Of a stretch of 64,000 nucleotides of DNA, positions 9,374 to 57,787 are shown piece by piece. A program made the translations under genes and the position numbers. This DNA comes from Intrasporangiaceae bacterium URHB0013 (GTDB lineage Bacteria > Actinomycetota > Actinomycetes > Actinomycetales > Dermatophilaceae), in the NCBI GenBank assembly GCA_000620545.1, contig KK211150.1, positions 124,001 through 188,000 on the forward strand, given 5' to 3'. Position 1 is the stretch's first letter; each line of letters starts with the position of its first letter. The notes below the pieces were generated by a model. It was not told the origin of the DNA. It ran no database searches and was given only the letters and a program-made list of their open reading frames with translations.

Positions 9374-9623
9374 CCCCGTGCTGCTCGAAGGGCCCCGCCG
9401 GGCCACGAGCCGACACGACAGCACCAAAGCGGTCCCGCCCAGCACCGGCCACCGCCGACTCCCGACTACCGACCCCCGACCCCGAACCCGACCCCGACTC
9501 CAACCGAAGAAGGGTGGGATCGGGGGAACCCGACGGCTGGAGGGGCCCGTCGAAGCCACGGCGACCGGCATACCCCTGCCTGCCCGTCCGACCACCACAC
9601 GCTCTGCCCGAAGGACCACATCC

Positions 9624-10526
9624 GTGGACGAGTCCGCGAACACCCCTGAGCTCATCCCACCGCCCGGCGCCGCCGACGGGCACGACGCGACCCCGCCGGC
9701 ACCGCGCTCCCCCGGACCAGCCCAGGGCGGGGTTATCGACCACGAGGCCGCGGACGACGGACCACAGCCGCACCTCGATGTCGACGTCGAGCAGCAGCTC
9801 CGGGCCCTGCTCGCGGCGGCTCCCGACCCGGGACCGATGCCGGACGCCGTGTCCGGGCGCATCTCGAGCGCGCTCCTGGAGGAGTCGCGGCTGCGGGTGC
9901 GTCCGGGCCCGTTGGCGCCAGCTCGCTCAGGCTCGGACCCTGCGGGCACAGGCGACGGCACGGTGCTCCCGATGCCGTCCCGGGCCGACCGGCCCAAGCC
10001 GCTCTACATCGTCGCCGCCGTCGCGGCAGCCGCAGTGGTCGTCGCCGTGGGCGCGTCGGCCCTGCACGTGACCAAGCGGCCCAACGGTGCCGCGGTCGTC
10101 GGCGACCCGTTCGGCTCTGGAGCCACGACAGCCACGACGGCCACGACGTCGAGCGCGCCGGCCGCTCCCGGTGGGCTCCACATCCAGCTCAGCACGACGG
10201 CATACACCGCCGGAAACCTCGCCACCGAGGCACGGTCGCTGCTGGACCACCCCGGCGACCCGATCCGTGACCTCGCGGCCGAGTCCCCGGGGATCGGCCC
10301 CATCGCCACGCCCATCGGCCTCGCGTCGTGTCTCGAGGAGATCGGGGCCCTCCAGGCGGCCGACCCCGCACCCGACGCGGTCTCGGCCGACCTCGCGACG
10401 TTCGACGGACGTCCGGCGGTGGTCGTCGTCGTGACGCGCGGGAGCGCCAGCACCGCGTGGGCCGTCGAGCGCAGCTGCACGACCGGCGCTCCCGGCCTGC
10501 TCCAGGGTGCCACTCCGGTCCCGTGA
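9624..10526 (+). CDS. Putative SigM anti-sigma factor, single-pass membrane protein
   Basis: The protein has 300 residues. Residues 1-120 are acidic and Pro-rich with a short helical segment (DVEQQLRALLAAAPDPGPMPDAVSGR cut here to its pattern: a conserved-looking leucine-rich helix followed by a P-x-P-x-P turn). One membrane helix (LYIVAAVAAAAVVVAVGASAL) follows near residue 130, and then an exported C-terminal domain containing two cysteines. This is the topology of mycobacterial SigM anti-sigma proteins, encoded directly after sigM. There is no zinc-binding HxxxCxxC signature. The GTG at 9624 is chosen because GAAGGA precedes it by about 8 bases; the frame is open upstream to 9378 but that part is repetitive Arg/Pro/Thr. 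The 250-base gap after sigM holds no other gene. Confidence 0.75.
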   Translation: MDESANTPELIPPPGAADGHDATPPAPRSPGPAQGGVIDHEAADDGPQPHLDVDVEQQLRALLAAAPDPGPMPDAVSGRISSALLEESRLRVRPGPLAPARSGSDPAGTGDGTVLPMPSRADRPKPLYIVAAVAAAAVVVAVGASALHVTKRPNGAAVVGDPFGSGATTATTATTSSAPAAPGGLHIQLSTTAYTAGNLATEARSLLDHPGDPIRDLAAESPGIGPIATPIGLASCLEEIGALQAADPAPDAVSADLATFDGRPAVVVVVTRGSASTAWAVERSCTTGAPGLLQGATPVP

Positions 10527-21560: not shown

Positions 21561-23438
21561 TCAGGTGCGACCGGCCGCCCCGCGGTCGGCCATCTCACCG
21601 GCTGCCTCGAGGTAGGCCAGGGCGCCGCTGCTTGATGGGTCGTACGTCATGACGGTCTCGCCGAAGCTCGGTGCCTCCGACACGCGCACAGAACGCGGCA
21701 CGGTGGTGCGCAGCACCTCCTTCGGGAAGTGTTCGCGCACCTCGTCAGCGACCTGGGCGGACAGCCGGGTTCGTGCGTCGTACATCGTCAGCAGGATCGT
21801 CGAGACGTGCAGTGTCGGGTTGAGGTGGCGCTTGACGAGGTCGATGTTCTTGAGCAGTTGCGAGAGACCCTCGAGGGCGTAGTACTCACACTGGATCGGG
21901 ATGAACACCTCACTGGCCGCAACCATCGCGTTCACGGTGAGCAGTCCGAGGCTGGGCGGGCAGTCGATGAGGATGTAGTCGAACTCGTGGCCCGCCTCCA
22001 CCGCCCCGGCAATCGCCTTCTGCAGGCGCGACTCTCGGGCGACGAGCGAGACCAGCTCGATCTCGGCACCGGCGAGGTCGATCGTCGCGGGCGCGCAGTA
22101 GAGGTTGTCGACCGTGGTGCACCGCTGGACCACGTCGAGCAGGGGGGTGCTGTCGACGAGGACGTCGTAGATGGACGGCACTTCGGCATGGTGGTCGATC
22201 CCGAGGGCAGTGCTGGCATTTCCCTGGGGGTCGAGGTCGATGACGAGCGTCCTGAGCCCGGACTGCGCCAGGGCGGCGGCGACGTTGACCGTCGTGGTCG
22301 TCTTGCCGACCCCACCCTTCTGGTTCGCCACGGTGAGGACCCGGGCCGCGACCGGCTTCGGGAACGGACGGCCTGTCAGGTGGATCCGTCTGCGTGCGTT
22401 CTCGGCGAGCTCCATCGCGAGGGGCGTGTCCGTGCCGGCGATCGGGATGGCGGCTGCAAGGGCTTCACGATCCGCACGGTCGGCAGCGAGCTGCGAGGTC
22501 CGCTCCGCTTCGTCCACAGCGTTGTCCCCAGCCTCCTTCGTCGCCGTTTCCAGTTCAACAGGCGGCATTTCATGACCGTCATCCACCGCGTTGTCCACAG
22601 GCGCGGAGTCGGCTCCCTGCCCGTCCCCGGTGCCCTCCTCGACGCGCCCGGGCGCCGTGCCAGCAACCTCGACCGGCGCCGCCTTCTCGGTCCGCGGTGC
22701 CATGTCGTACGCCCGCGGAGCGTTCACGGGTTCGGCGTCGGCCGGCCCGTCACCGGGTGCCGCCGCCTGGGGGGCCGAGGCGTCGTCGCGCGACGCGTCG
22801 AGCTCCGAAGGCGGCTCGTCCGCCACGGGCGCTGCGTTCGCCGGGAAGGCCTCGTGCGCCGACTCGATGGGGTCAGGCTGCGCGCCGGGCGCCTCGGACG
22901 CGTCGAGCTCCCCAGGCCGCTCCTGCGCCACCGGCGCTGTGTTCGCCGGGAAGGCCTCGTGCGCCGACTCGATGGGGTCAGGCTGCGCGCCGGGCGCCTC
23001 GGAGACGGGAACCTCACCGACCGACGCCCCGCCGACTGCACCCTCGCTCACCTGGGGCTCGCCCACCGGAACCGCACCCTGCGAAGCGGCCGGAGTGCCC
23101 GGAGCGCTGGTCTCCACGGGTTCACCGCCCGTCATCGCGTCATGGCGGCCTTGCGAAGAGCCGGAGCCTCCGTGACCGGACGGGTCGTCGCCCAGGTCAC
23201 CAGTGTTGGCGGACCCCACCGACGACGGCCCGACGTCGCCGCTCGTCGCTGCGTGGACGGCCTTCGGAACCGACGCCTCCGCCGCGCTCTCGCTGATGGC
23301 GTCACGCTCGGAAGCGTCGTGGGTCGGATCGATCGTTTCACGTGAAACGCCCAACATGCGCGCCAGCCACCCGAGACGTCGGTGCTCCGGGCCCGGCTCG
23401 GGTTCGCTCGGCCAGCCCAGGTTGGTCGACATCGTCAC
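21561..23438 (-). CDS. parA: Chromosome-partitioning ATPase ParA with long disordered N-terminal extension
   Basis: The protein has 625 residues, about twice the usual ParA length. The C-terminal 270 residues are a normal ParA/Soj ATPase: ANQKGGVGKTTTTVNVAAAL (deviant Walker A), LVIDLDPQGNAST, LIDCPPSLGLLTVNAM and VRVSEAPSFGETV. The first 340 residues are Ala/Pro/Glu/Ser-rich low complexity, include a short segment LGWLARMLGVSRETIDP encoded across a parS site, and carry a 105-base tandem duplication. The GTG at 23438 is chosen because GGAGG lies 10 bases away; an ATG at 23432 is the alternative. The extension may act as a flexible tether or a partner-binding tail, but no function is established from sequence. 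Confidence 0.93.
   Translation of the reverse strand: MTMSTNLGWPSEPEPGPEHRRLGWLARMLGVSRETIDPTHDASERDAISESAAEASVPKAVHAATSGDVGPSSVGSANTGDLGDDPSGHGGSGSSQGRHDAMTGGEPVETSAPGTPAASQGAVPVGEPQVSEGAVGGASVGEVPVSEAPGAQPDPIESAHEAFPANTAPVAQERPGELDASEAPGAQPDPIESAHEAFPANAAPVADEPPSELDASRDDASAPQAAAPGDGPADAEPVNAPRAYDMAPRTEKAAPVEVAGTAPGRVEEGTGDGQGADSAPVDNAVDDGHEMPPVELETATKEAGDNAVDEAERTSQLAADRADREALAAAIPIAGTDTPLAMELAENARRRIHLTGRPFPKPVAARVLTVANQKGGVGKTTTTVNVAAALAQSGLRTLVIDLDPQGNASTALGIDHHAEVPSIYDVLVDSTPLLDVVQRCTTVDNLYCAPATIDLAGAEIELVSLVARESRLQKAIAGAVEAGHEFDYILIDCPPSLGLLTVNAMVAASEVFIPIQCEYYALEGLSQLLKNIDLVKRHLNPTLHVSTILLTMYDARTRLSAQVADEVREHFPKEVLRTTVPRSVRVSEAPSFGETVMTYDPSSSGALAYLEAAGEMADRGAAGRT
22792..23001. repeat. 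105-base tandem duplication inside parA
   Basis: Two adjacent units, 22792-22896 and 22897-23001, are nearly identical; a core of about 63 bases starting at 22836 and 22941 matches exactly. In protein each unit is 35 residues with the pattern S/D-ELDAS...EAPGAQPDPIESAHEAFPAN. The reading frame is kept. Confidence 0.85.
23335..23348. promoter_or_regulatory. parS site (perfect) inside parA
   Basis: GTTTCACGTGAAAC within the 5' part of the parA coding sequence, coding VSRET. The frame tolerates the palindrome. Confidence 0.9.
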
Positions 23439-25176: not shown

Positions 25177-25240
25177 TGTGGACAACCGGCGTTTCCGCAG
25201 GTCAGAGGCCCCAAGGCAATGTGGACAAGTCTGTGGACGA
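25177..25240. promoter_or_regulatory. Three DnaA boxes between jag and yidC
   Basis: TGTGGACAA occurs at 25177-25185 and 25220-25228, and TGTGGACGA at 25232-25240. All three point the same way. They sit in a 97-base gap. Confidence 0.75.
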
Positions 25241-27155: not shown

Positions 27156-27698
27156 GAGGTTCTCCGTAGGTTGCAGGGGCCCGCCCGACGTCACGACGAC
27201 GTCGGTCCGGCTCCCGTTGTGGGGCTGTCGGTGGCCGATGCGACCGCAATCGGCAAGCCCGTGGAGGGCCGAGCTGCTCCGGCTGGGCCGGTCTCGGGGC
27301 CATGGGCATGCGAAAAAGGTCGCAGACACGCTCGGTCAACGATACGGGAGCCGCCGAACGAGGGTCAAACCGACGGAGGCTCACGCGGGACCAAGGCCAA
27401 ACGCACGATCCTTCGAGGTCCTGAGCGGATTGCAAGGCGACACGCCGATGGTGCCAAAAGATCTGTGGCCGACGTAATTGTCACCAGCGCGCCTGCGGCT
27501 GTAGGTTTTCGACTCTCACGATCCTCGCCACCCCATGCACAGGCTGTGGACAAACGTGTGGACAACAGGGCATCGTTCACCGGGGCACGGGGCGGTCCCA
27601 GTAGGTCCGACCCGGCAGGCTCGAGTTCGTGCTCGCGCCGCAGCGAGCCGGGAACTCAACAGGTGCAACAGAATTGATTCAGGGGTAGGTGGGATCAG
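27156..27698. promoter_or_regulatory. rpmH-dnaA intergenic region with DnaA boxes and dnaA promoter
   Basis: This 543-base gap has no gene. A dnaA promoter candidate is TTGTCA (27478-27483) and TAGGTT (27502-27507) with an 18-base spacer, giving a leader of about 185 bases. Two DnaA boxes, TGTGGACAA at 27545-27553 and 27557-27565, lie in the leader, which fits autoregulation by DnaA. A TTGACC in minus orientation near 27325 may belong to the rpmH promoter. The two boxes are too few to be the main origin here. Confidence 0.7.
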
Positions 27699-31251: not shown

Positions 31252-31898
31252 TCGGCAGCGGCGTACTCGCCCGTCGTCCGCCGCCGACAGTGCTCGGGTC
31301 CACATCCGTCCACAGGGTTGTCCACACCTGTGTGCACAGCGTGACCTCCCCGTGACCGGCCACTCACAGACGCCGGACGGCCAGCACCGGCCAGAGTTGT
31401 CCACCGTCTGTGGACAACTCTGTGGAAGGCTTTCGGTCTCCGGTGCACAGGTGACTAGTCAGCAATGCCGTCAAACCCGACATATGCCCATCGTTCTTCC
31501 ACACACCGTCTGTGGAAACGTGTGGATGACGGCGGCGAACCTGCGGACAAGCCGCCGCCGACCTGTGAGGACGATGTGCACCGGCGAGGTCCGTCCACAG
31601 GCCCCTGCCGTCGCGCCGCGGCCGGCCCCACATCCTGTCCACACCCTCATGGACGGCTGACCAGCAGCGATACCGGTTGTCCACACGATCCACACCACCT
31701 ATGACTACGACGAGATCCCAGACATGGAGGGGAGCCCCGACAACGAGGGTCTGTCCCACCCCGAGCCGGCCCTCCACGAGCCCGGGAGATACGTGCCGTT
31801 TGAACACATCGGAGATTCGGGGAGTGTCTGTGGTGCCAGTCACCGGCAGGCACTAGTGTCTGGACCCCAATGTCCTTCCTTGTCGAAGTGAGTGCACC
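31252..31898. promoter_or_regulatory. oriC: Probable chromosomal origin oriC
   Basis: This 647-base gap upstream of dnaN has no gene and many DnaA boxes. Clear ones are TTGTCCACA at 31318-31326, TTGTCCACC at 31397-31405, TGTGGACAA at 31409-31417 and TTGTCCACA at 31677-31685. Looser forms (CGTCCACAG, TGTGGAAAC, TGTGGATGA, CTGTCCACA, TGTGGAAGG) lie between. A TAGTGT at 31854-31859 is a possible dnaN -10. The gap is separated from dnaA by two genes, unlike the usual dnaA-oriC-dnaN order. Confidence 0.88.
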
Positions 31899-56721: not shown

Positions 56722-57306
56722 GTGCACCTCGTCTGCGTGACCGGTCCGCCGGCCGTCGGCAAGATGACGGTGGGTCGGGCGGTCTGCGACCTGACGGGTT
56801 TCCGGCTCTTCCACAACCACATGTCGATCGAGCCCCTCCTCGGGGTCTACGACTTCGGCACGCCGTCGTTCCGGCGGATCAACGCCCTGATCCGCCGCGA
56901 GGTCCTCGCCGAGTCCGTCGTCGCCGACCTGCCAGGGCTCGTCTTCACCTTCGCGATCGACCTCGACCATCCCGACGACCTCGCGCACCTGCGCGAGCTC
57001 ATCGCGCCGGTCGAGCGCGCCGGCGCGCCCGTCGACGTCGTGGAGCTGTACGCACCCCAGCACGTGCGTCTGGCCCGCGAGGGTGGCCCCGACCGTATGG
57101 AGCACAAGCGCAGCAAGCGCGACGTCGAGTGGGCGCGCGCGCACGTCATCGAGCTCGAGGCCCGGGCGCGGTTCAGCACCGACCCGGCACGCGACGGCGA
57201 GCGGCTGCTGCCCGGCCACCGTCACCTGCGCCTCGACAACGACCACGGTGACGCGGGCGCGACCGCAGAGCGGATCGTTGCCGAGCTCGGGCTGCCGCGG
57301 CTCTGA
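56722..57306 (+). CDS. P-loop NTPase, kinase-like
   Basis: A 194-residue protein with Walker A GPPAVGKMTVGRAV near residue 8. Late features include a lysine/arginine-rich lid (RMEHKRSKRDVEW) near 125. It looks like an AAA_33 or shikimate-kinase-like NTPase that could phosphorylate a small molecule. No signal peptide. GTG at 56722 follows the rhomboid stop by 8 bases. Substrate is unknown. Confidence 0.8.
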   Translation: MHLVCVTGPPAVGKMTVGRAVCDLTGFRLFHNHMSIEPLLGVYDFGTPSFRRINALIRREVLAESVVADLPGLVFTFAIDLDHPDDLAHLRELIAPVERAGAPVDVVELYAPQHVRLAREGGPDRMEHKRSKRDVEWARAHVIELEARARFSTDPARDGERLLPGHRHLRLDNDHGDAGATAERIVAELGLPRL

Positions 57307-57535
57307 TCCCTGTGGCCGGAAGGAAAGTTGTCCACCGGCTGTGGATAAACCTGTGGATGTAGTTACACACGTGTCATTCATCCCCAGCTGGGGACAACTC
57401 TGTGGACAACTCGCGCTCGTCGCGGTGCCGATTGTGCACGACCGTCATCCACAGGTGTGGACCGGGACGCACAGCGCCGGCTGTCCACAGGTGTGGACAG
57501 CCGGCGCAGGGTGGCGTTGTGGGCGGCGGTGCTGC
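57307..57535. promoter_or_regulatory. Second DnaA-box cluster upstream of crgA
   Basis: A 229-base gap without a gene has at least six DnaA-box-like 9-mers: TTGTCCACC (57328), TGTGGATAA (57340), TGTGGATGT (57352), TGTGGACAA (57401), TCATCCACA (57445) and CTGTCCACA/TGTGGACAG around 57481-57500. Density is close to that of oriC, but it lies about 25 kb away. Confidence 0.8.
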
Positions 57536-57787
57536 TCAGCGCCACCGCATCGTCATGATGAACCCGCCCATGAGCAGGACGAAGCCCACGCCGAGGTTCC
57601 AGACCCCGATGGACCCGATCGGGTACTGGTACTCGCTCACGTAGTAGACGACGATCCACAGCAGGCCCAGGACGAGCAGCGTGATGAAGACGGGCGCCCA
57701 CCAGGTGGGGTTGGGCTCGGCGGCCTTGCTGGTGCGGGGCGGGGTGTATGCCGTCGCCTTGTGGTCGCGGCCTTTGGACTCGGGCAC
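57536..57787 (-). CDS. crgA: Cell division protein CrgA
   Basis: The protein has 83 residues and two membrane helices, WWAPVFITLLVLGLLWIVVYY and GVWNLGVGFVLLMGGFIMTM, separated by a short loop (SEYQYPIGSIG). This is the CrgA family, which helps place FtsZ and recruit septal peptidoglycan enzymes in Actinobacteria. The GTG at 57787 has AAGGAG 6 bases upstream. The gene is read leftward from a region rich in DnaA boxes. Confidence 0.95.
   Translation of the reverse strand: MPESKGRDHKATAYTPPRTSKAAEPNPTWWAPVFITLLVLGLLWIVVYYVSEYQYPIGSIGVWNLGVGFVLLMGGFIMTMRWR

Follow-up and report, generated by a model that had tools for sequence, protein, structure and literature searches.

Setting and anatomy of the cluster

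The window analysed here is the whole 64-kb stretch of the genome of Intrasporangiaceae bacterium URHB0013, referred to below as Terrabacter, and the element in question is a cluster of DnaA boxes beside the crgA gene. The whole element lies inside a 229 bp intergenic gap (57307..57535), bounded by the ends of two open reading frames (ORFs) at 57306 (+ strand) and 57536 (- strand). The first ORF (56722..57306, +) carries a P-loop-like GPPAVGK motif recognised by eye and gave no Pfam match at E 1e-4. The second (57536..57787, -) is crgA, which encodes 83 aa from a GTG start and was identified from its translation and a match to PF06781 (E 2.3e-29). This is the setting described by the initial annotation, which had placed the cluster between a P-loop gene and crgA but left undrawn the point that the two genes are convergent. 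According to the ORFs of the window, they face each other 3' to 3'; since the gap thus separates the 3' ends of convergent genes, the cluster is not the crgA promoter.

We scored as a DnaA box any 9-mer with at most one mismatch from TTRTCCACA. Seven such boxes lie within the 173 bp from 57328 to 57500, two of them perfect and both on the - strand (57340, TTATCCACA; 57401, TTGTCCACA), and the gap also holds five 9-mers at two mismatches, two of which overlap each other. At least six box-like 9-mers in about 175 bases had been claimed on first inspection, and the scan bears out this count. The first box triple (57328..57360, +) reads -> <- <-, i.e. one box on the + strand followed by two on the - strand, with gaps of 3 and 3 bp; its boxes start at 57328 (+, TTGTCCACC), 57340 (-, TTATCCACA) and 57352 (-, ACATCCACA). 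It is followed by the palindrome TAGTTACACACGTGTCATTC (57360..57379; consensus near GAATKACA-N4-TGTMATTC), a putative binding site for a dimeric protein, and by a second -> <- <- triple (57378..57409, +) with gaps of 2 and 3 bp and boxes at 57378 (+, TCATCCCCA), 57389 (-, TTGTCCCCA) and 57401 (-, TTGTCCACA). The cluster is centred on a module of about 50 bp, in which an AT-leaning palindrome precedes three boxes in -> <- <- order; this core module (57361..57413, +) matches positions 2-54 of the 58 in the sequence model R1 described below (54.2 bits, E 3.8e-14). Beyond it lie an inverted pair of DnaA-box-like 9-mers, 2 bp apart (57445..57464; boxes at 57445 and 57456), and a perfect 15-bp inverted repeat with a 2-bp loop (57475..57506) that contains two further box-like 9-mers. 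The inverted repeat may in addition terminate the transcription of both convergent genes. Its box pair is present in five of seven other Terrabacter-like loci (L009-L015), with one arm only in L011 and neither arm in L009 at the cutoff used.

The perfect hairpin at 57475-57506 speaks for another explanation, that the cluster is a by-product of a terminator or arose by chance. However, none of 200 windows simulated with a first-order Markov model held more than two boxes in any 175 bp, compared with the seven observed, the module recurs across families as described below, and the sole match in an Rfam scan was to a miRNA family, far below the cutoff. We therefore regard this explanation as extremely improbable; it is contradicted for the core module, while the hairpin alone may be a terminator. 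In the same simulations, the whole window held a mean of 6.3 boxes, compared with 24 observed. Only two -> <- <- triples with at most three summed mismatches occur in the window within the gap ranges searched, and the palindrome pattern TNACANNNNTGTNANTC has one match there, with 0.03 expected. In the alignment of 39 modules, that of the window included (A1), the dyad symmetry of the palindrome holds in 79.5% of cells, as against 27-42% when the axis is slid. Scans for tRNA in the window and in the dnaB region gave no lead.

Genome-wide box totals are by themselves unremarkable, with 18 perfect boxes in the 4.57-Mb genome versus 14 for a reversed-pattern control, and 361 versus 294 at one mismatch or fewer. 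It is their placement that stands out: 12 of the 18 perfect boxes share one contig and a 110 kb region surrounding oriC, and the sole perfect TTATCCACA of the genome is the one in the crgA-gap cluster. The gap contains seven TCCACA cores in 240 bp versus twelve in 660 bp at oriC, for which the DnaA-box region of the dnaA-dnaN interval (31299..31694, from the box scan) served as the comparison site. The box density of the gap is thus at least equal to that of oriC, where equality had been claimed. Tight same-strand pairs of TCCACA cores number 33 genome-wide against 11 in the control, and tight divergent pairs occur at 8 places against 4. Places with multiple cores comprise oriC, the region upstream of dnaA, the yidC-jag region, the region upstream of dnaB, the crgA gap and small sites on contigs 10 and 14, and many lone core pairs are scattered elsewhere.

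A box density that equals or exceeds that of oriC could also point to a displaced or second replication origin, which the initial annotation had offered as an alternative. The 50-bp AT maximum is 0.54 at the gap and 0.52 in the oriC gap, and over a stretch of 186 kb the cumulative GC skew reaches its minimum at C9:183380, 2 kb from the cluster. Nevertheless, the local GC skew is too noisy to lend usable support, as it wanders without a clean V and reaches similar depths elsewhere; the keto-skew minimum lies at 101300, and the ordinary arrangement of dnaA, box region and dnaN is present. Having found no usable minimum in GC and keto skew over the 186 kb, nor a separation of the two sites by AT content, we rejected this candidate, and we consider a second origin very improbable.

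A composite module conserved beside crgA

The conservation of the cluster was examined in 70 class-wide loci, comprising the 30 best CrgA matches and 40 loci hand-picked over genera. Related genomes are counted as separate entries, kinship being ignored in the counts, and the family and genus names attached to our labels (e.g. Terrabacter-like or Streptomyces-like) are guesses. At least one box occurs within 300 bp 3' of crgA in 63 of the 70 loci and in 23 of the 25 family labels; two or more boxes are found there in 52 loci and a perfect box in 48. The box density in this interval is 7.77/kb (162 in 20.9 kb), compared with 0.19/kb (4 in 21.0 kb) in the 300 bp 5' of crgA and 0.23/kb (65 in 277.7 kb) elsewhere in the 70 loci. 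Some of the seven loci without a near box carry one at a distance or in a weaker form: L115 has boxes 478-548 bp downstream of crgA, in L110/L164 R1 places a module (33.9 bits) some 1.8 kb downstream, and L152 has a recognisable module with weaker boxes 18 bp past the end of the CrgA match. G373 is the remaining locus besides three genomes that are considered below. Among 80 further named loci, one or more boxes lie within 500 bp in 17 of 18 Intrasporangiaceae-like, 5 of 5 Streptomycetaceae and 54 of 56 Geodermatophilaceae-like loci; L084, a further named locus, has no box within 500 bp of crgA. In L018 and L065 the cluster is shifted by about 1.6 to 1.7 kb, and R1 finds the module there. At closer range, an alignment of eight Terrabacter-like sequences shows 59 invariant columns among the 63 that fall in boxes, as against 77 of 167 in the rest of the gap; moving the box mask to any of 229 other offsets never did as well as the true placement.

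When the gaps are set side by side, the palindrome and the box triple recur together, as a GAATTACA-N4-TGTAATTC-like dyad followed by TCCCCA, TGTGGATAA and TGTGGATAA. This composite of a palindrome and an oriented triple, and its wide conservation, had not been foreseen. The box strings in the 700 bp 3' of crgA were tallied over 151 loci, namely the window, the 70 class-wide loci and the 80 named ones, which belong mostly to three families. A three-box string occurs in 109 of the 151, and all 109 carry the order -> <- <-, the other orientation classes of triples appearing in 13, 5, 3 and 2 of them. The best gaps per locus are (2,3) in 57, (1,4) in 30, (3,3) in 13 and other combinations in 9 of the 109 loci.

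The sequence-only model R1 was built from 39 hand-picked modules (the alignment A1), with the window among them; owing to this choice, the invariance of ACA and TGT is partly built in. In the genome of the window, the R1 score is 54.2 bits at the gap; the next best place reaches 22 bits and is a partial match to the neighbouring triple. The module is therefore single-copy there, and the many similar clusters elsewhere that the initial annotation had named as grounds for doubting its proposal were not encountered. Over 393 genomes of the class, 391 gave some match at E 0.1, box-only fragments included. The best 150 places of this search fall in 148 genomes, with E values down to about 1e-9, and a few of them cover only model positions 6 or 7 onward. 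Positions were tallied for the 138 of these 148 genomes in which crgA was placed, the other 243 matched genomes being outside the tally. In 128 of the 138, the module lies 0-525 bp 3' of crgA (median 62 bp), and 100 of these 128 modules were outside the training set of R1; none of the 138 has it within 1 kb 5' of crgA. Relative to crgA, the module is on the same strand in 119 of the 128 close cases and on the opposite strand in 9, including the window. For the 93 genomes with the module and dnaA on one contig, their distance has a median of 19.5 kb (range 9.7-178 kb), where contigs with the two at opposite ends were assumed to be circular and the values for G371 and G065 are approximate; the module is on the downstream (dnaN) side of dnaA in 84 and on the other side in 9. 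A scan of 158 genomes across the phylum found 83 with R1 matches at E <= 1e-3, many of them box-only. We examined 12 of the 20 near full-length matches outside the class: the module lies 7-373 bp 3' of a divergent crgA in 10, and no crgA was found by tblastn in the other two. Among the papers listed by a literature search, which left most subscription papers outside its reach, none has a title or abstract that describes a DnaA module tied to crgA across the class.

The module is not a part of crgA, as it lies away from this gene in 10 of the 138 mapped genomes. Four genomes sharing a genus label (G038, G118, G145 and G154) have it about 10 kb from dnaA while crgA is about 30 kb off on the opposite side; it follows the same gyrA-isomerase-rhomboid run that adjoins crgA in related genomes, and another large ORF faces it instead. 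The gyrA and rhomboid genes were confirmed by tblastn in the two of these genomes tested, the isomerase being named by eye, and the four placements may represent one event. Unlike these four, G163 has the module between gyrB and another gene (L200, 3685-3740). It lies 3 kb from crgA on the 5' side in G325 and about 86 kb from dnaA in G282.

Such cases, together with the closeness of the module to dnaA, would suit a role in chromosome organisation, in which DnaA and a palindrome-bound protein would let the module anchor or pair with oriC, or mark the region for segregation. No known segregation motif was recognised in it by eye, no search having been made, and we consider this role improbable.

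Separately, second strong copies of the module lie far from crgA in G326 and G381, which share one genus label (L207, 3490-3539; L208, 3538-3589).

Relation to DnaA-binding sites in mycobacteria and E. coli

In M. tuberculosis, five regions are bound by DnaA in vitro, and the homologues of these five are bound in M. smegmatis (PMC7738170). One of them is the gap 3' of crgA (Rv0011c; PMC3989709), at which binding was found in vitro in M. tuberculosis and in vivo at the homologous place in M. smegmatis (Hicks et al. 2020; PMC7738170). This Rv0010c-Rv0011c site likewise lies 3' of crgA and has a DnaA-box-like cluster with a box palindrome (PMC7738170). Compared by description, the window cluster, also a set of DnaA boxes 3' of crgA, is probably its ortholog. 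The authors of the mycobacterial study saw "no obvious correspondence" in other species, and the parts of their paper examined here make no mention of wider conservation, an AT-leaning palindrome or a DARS-like triple (PMC7738170). The present data offer a candidate sequence correspondence beyond mycobacteria, and would provide an evolutionary frame for a site for which the mycobacterial study could draw no link with DnaA binding in other species. Overall, the box groups of Terrabacter match four of the five mycobacterial regions, namely oriC, crgA, dnaB upstream and dnaA upstream: the mycobacterial dnaB-upstream and rpmH-dnaA sites (PMC7738170) have their counterparts at C9:71602-71774 and at window positions 27545..27565, where the box scan gives two perfect boxes on the - strand upstream of dnaA. 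A counterpart of the Rv3843c region was not recognised, no dedicated search having been made.

These comparisons bear on the initial proposal that DnaA at this site controls crgA and so links replication to division, taken here to include control of the neighbouring gene. The persistent neighbourhood with a cell-division gene favours it, as does the M. tuberculosis box palindrome located 65 bp upstream of the Rv0010c start (PMC7738170). However, all 128 close cases are 3' of crgA, the gap in the window is convergent, the strand of the module varies and the module persists where crgA sits elsewhere. In addition, the expression of neither flanking gene, Rv0010c or Rv0011c, was altered in mycobacterial dnaA mutants (PMC7738170). 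We rejected promoter control of crgA in view of the 3' and convergent geometry, the modules without crgA and the published expression (PMC7738170), and a transcriptional site of any kind seems to us rather less probable than a role in chromosome organisation.

Another parallel is provided by the DnaA-reactivating sequences (DARS) of E. coli, whose hallmark is a box I opposite to boxes II and III, with head-to-head contact of I and II (PMC5742627). The module also has a three-box core in which box I is opposite to II and III. In MG1655, the stretches compared as DARS1, DARS2 and datA were verified against box layout only; the regions taken as DARS1 and DARS2 both read -> 5 bp <- 3 bp <-. The 3-bp gap between boxes II and III is thus shared with the window triples, whose gaps are (2,3) and (3,3) compared with (5,3). 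DARS have a flanking regulatory region, to which the recurring palindrome beside the core of the module may correspond. Furthermore, the position of DARS relative to oriC is conserved in E. coli (PMC4585315). As the orientation fits and the spacing differs, we do not file the module as a DARS, but it may work like one.

We propose that the cluster represents, in Terrabacter, a control module of actinobacteria that binds DnaA, is close to oriC and usually lies just 3' of crgA. DnaA molecules would assemble on the triple, the first box head-to-head with the other two, and a putative dimeric protein on the palindrome would assist this assembly. The complex would then change the nucleotide state of DnaA, most likely by promoting the release of ADP so that ATP-DnaA is regenerated, as at the DARS of E. 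coli, and early replication of the module would tie this activity to the replication cycle. The cluster is very likely a conserved DnaA-binding control element and not a promoter, an origin or a product of chance. To this extent the initial interpretation stands, in view of the binding in mycobacteria (PMC7738170) and the recurrence of the module by crgA; its suggestions of crgA control and of a second origin are not supported. For the whole reading, an oriC-proximal element that controls DnaA activity by a DARS-like mechanism, we estimate a probability of roughly 45%, and a DARS-like direction, i.e. activation of DnaA, is a tentative assignment by analogy that we hold slightly less firmly still. 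A bolder extension is that the module represents a phylum-wide, usually single-locus counterpart of DARS by crgA, at which the palindrome protein replaces IHF and Fis in recycling DnaA and of which the mycobacterial drug-susceptibility site is one instance; this is speculative, and doubtful to a greater degree than the direction itself. We know of no DnaA-recycling site in Actinomycetota.

Several points weigh against the DARS-like reading. Spacing matters at DARS2 (PMC5742627), and the gap between boxes I and II of the module is mostly 1-3 bp, versus 5 bp at DARS. DARS2 has IHF and Fis sites, whereas the module has an unrelated palindrome with a putative partner. R1 has no match at E <= 1 in the DARS or datA loci of E. 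coli, which makes the relation to DARS one of analogy and not homology. The halves of the palindrome are symmetric but show no covariation beyond shuffles; we accordingly read it as a protein dyad instead of an RNA helix, and this, together with the single Rfam match below the cutoff, led us to reject an RNA element. Tight convergent core pairs are not in excess genome-wide (5 places versus 9 in the control). The module is also unevenly recognisable, being weak or beyond recognition in several families: in the Streptomyces-like family f24, best E values run from 4e-7 to 0.09, with no match in two genomes, and R1 matches are above 1e-4 in f22 and mostly so in f23. In addition, G200, G202 and G374 have no cluster by crgA and no R1 match within 13-16 kb around it. 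Published DnaA binding at the site is, as far as these sources go, confined to mycobacteria (PMC7738170). There, mutants of dnaA or of the site resemble dnaA variants with reduced activity, their cells being longer while initiation proceeds at the same rate (PMC7738170); this likeness speaks for the DARS-like direction. The unchanged rate fits no strong effect in either direction, and the mutations concerned could either raise or lower binding. Finally, the S. coelicolor cluster represses untimely initiation (PMC5742627), which points to a negative role.

This last point belongs to the second explanation, that the site titrates or inactivates DnaA in the manner of datA or of the S. coelicolor clusters: the boxes would double early, soak up or inactivate DnaA and delay re-initiation. 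The cluster has seven boxes, two perfect, and lies outside oriC but near enough for early duplication, and the module is near dnaA in 93 genomes. It resembles datA in that DnaA boxes are grouped in non-coding DNA away from oriC together with a site for another protein, putative in the module (PMC4585315), and DnaA-box clusters of S. coelicolor and B. subtilis, which likewise act on initiation, are said to repress it when untimely (PMC5742627). Mere titration, however, needs neither a near-fixed -> <- <- spacing nor a palindrome; the boxes of datA surround an IHF site, and the box list of the datA stretch contains no tight triple of the module kind. In addition, the mycobacterial mutants were likened to lowered, not raised, DnaA activity; the authors named both titration and nucleotide exchange as possibilities (PMC7738170). 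We therefore consider a DARS-like site more likely than a titrating one, and titration or inactivation, unlikely as it is, the next in order.

A similar composite site by crgA in many actinobacteria suggests a shared, little-known control point of replication. Actinobacteria, which include Streptomyces, Corynebacterium, mycobacteria and many of the organisms of soil and fresh water, have to our knowledge few of the controls by which E. coli times its replication. Being short, non-coding and recurrent, with plain rules for the order of its boxes, the module opens their timing of replication to direct test.

Other DnaA-box groups and module-like sites

Smaller DnaA-box groups occur elsewhere in the window, at 25177-25240 in the yidC-jag region and at 22510-22599 in the 5' part of a called parA-like ORF, upstream of its ParA-like domain; yidC, jag and parA, like dnaN, were named by eye. 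Another DnaA-box cluster (C9:71602-71774; L159, about 9600-9775) is found 84 kb away, across oriC, immediately ahead of the probable start of dnaB, which has both the N- and C-terminal DnaB domains. It had been considered as a counterpart of Rv3843c or of the Streptomyces cluster D78, and this was dropped when it turned out to be the dnaB upstream region. The S. coelicolor cluster H69 may be the crgA site of that species; H69, H24 and D78 are reportedly the names of the S. coelicolor clusters described by Smulczyk-Krawczyszyn and colleagues in 2006. A gap between two genes of the same strand, remote from oriC, contains three TCCACA cores within 26 bp (C10:201570-201596; L160), and three looser same-strand cores are found on contig 14 (C14:337263-337311; L161). 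Finally, two palindromes like that of the module stand 36 bp apart at C1:56511-56566 (L210, about 2010-2065), with weak R1 matches (E 4-9); they lie upstream of a CoA-transferase-like operon, recognised by eye, and may serve as an operator for the putative regulator of the module palindrome or for one akin to it.
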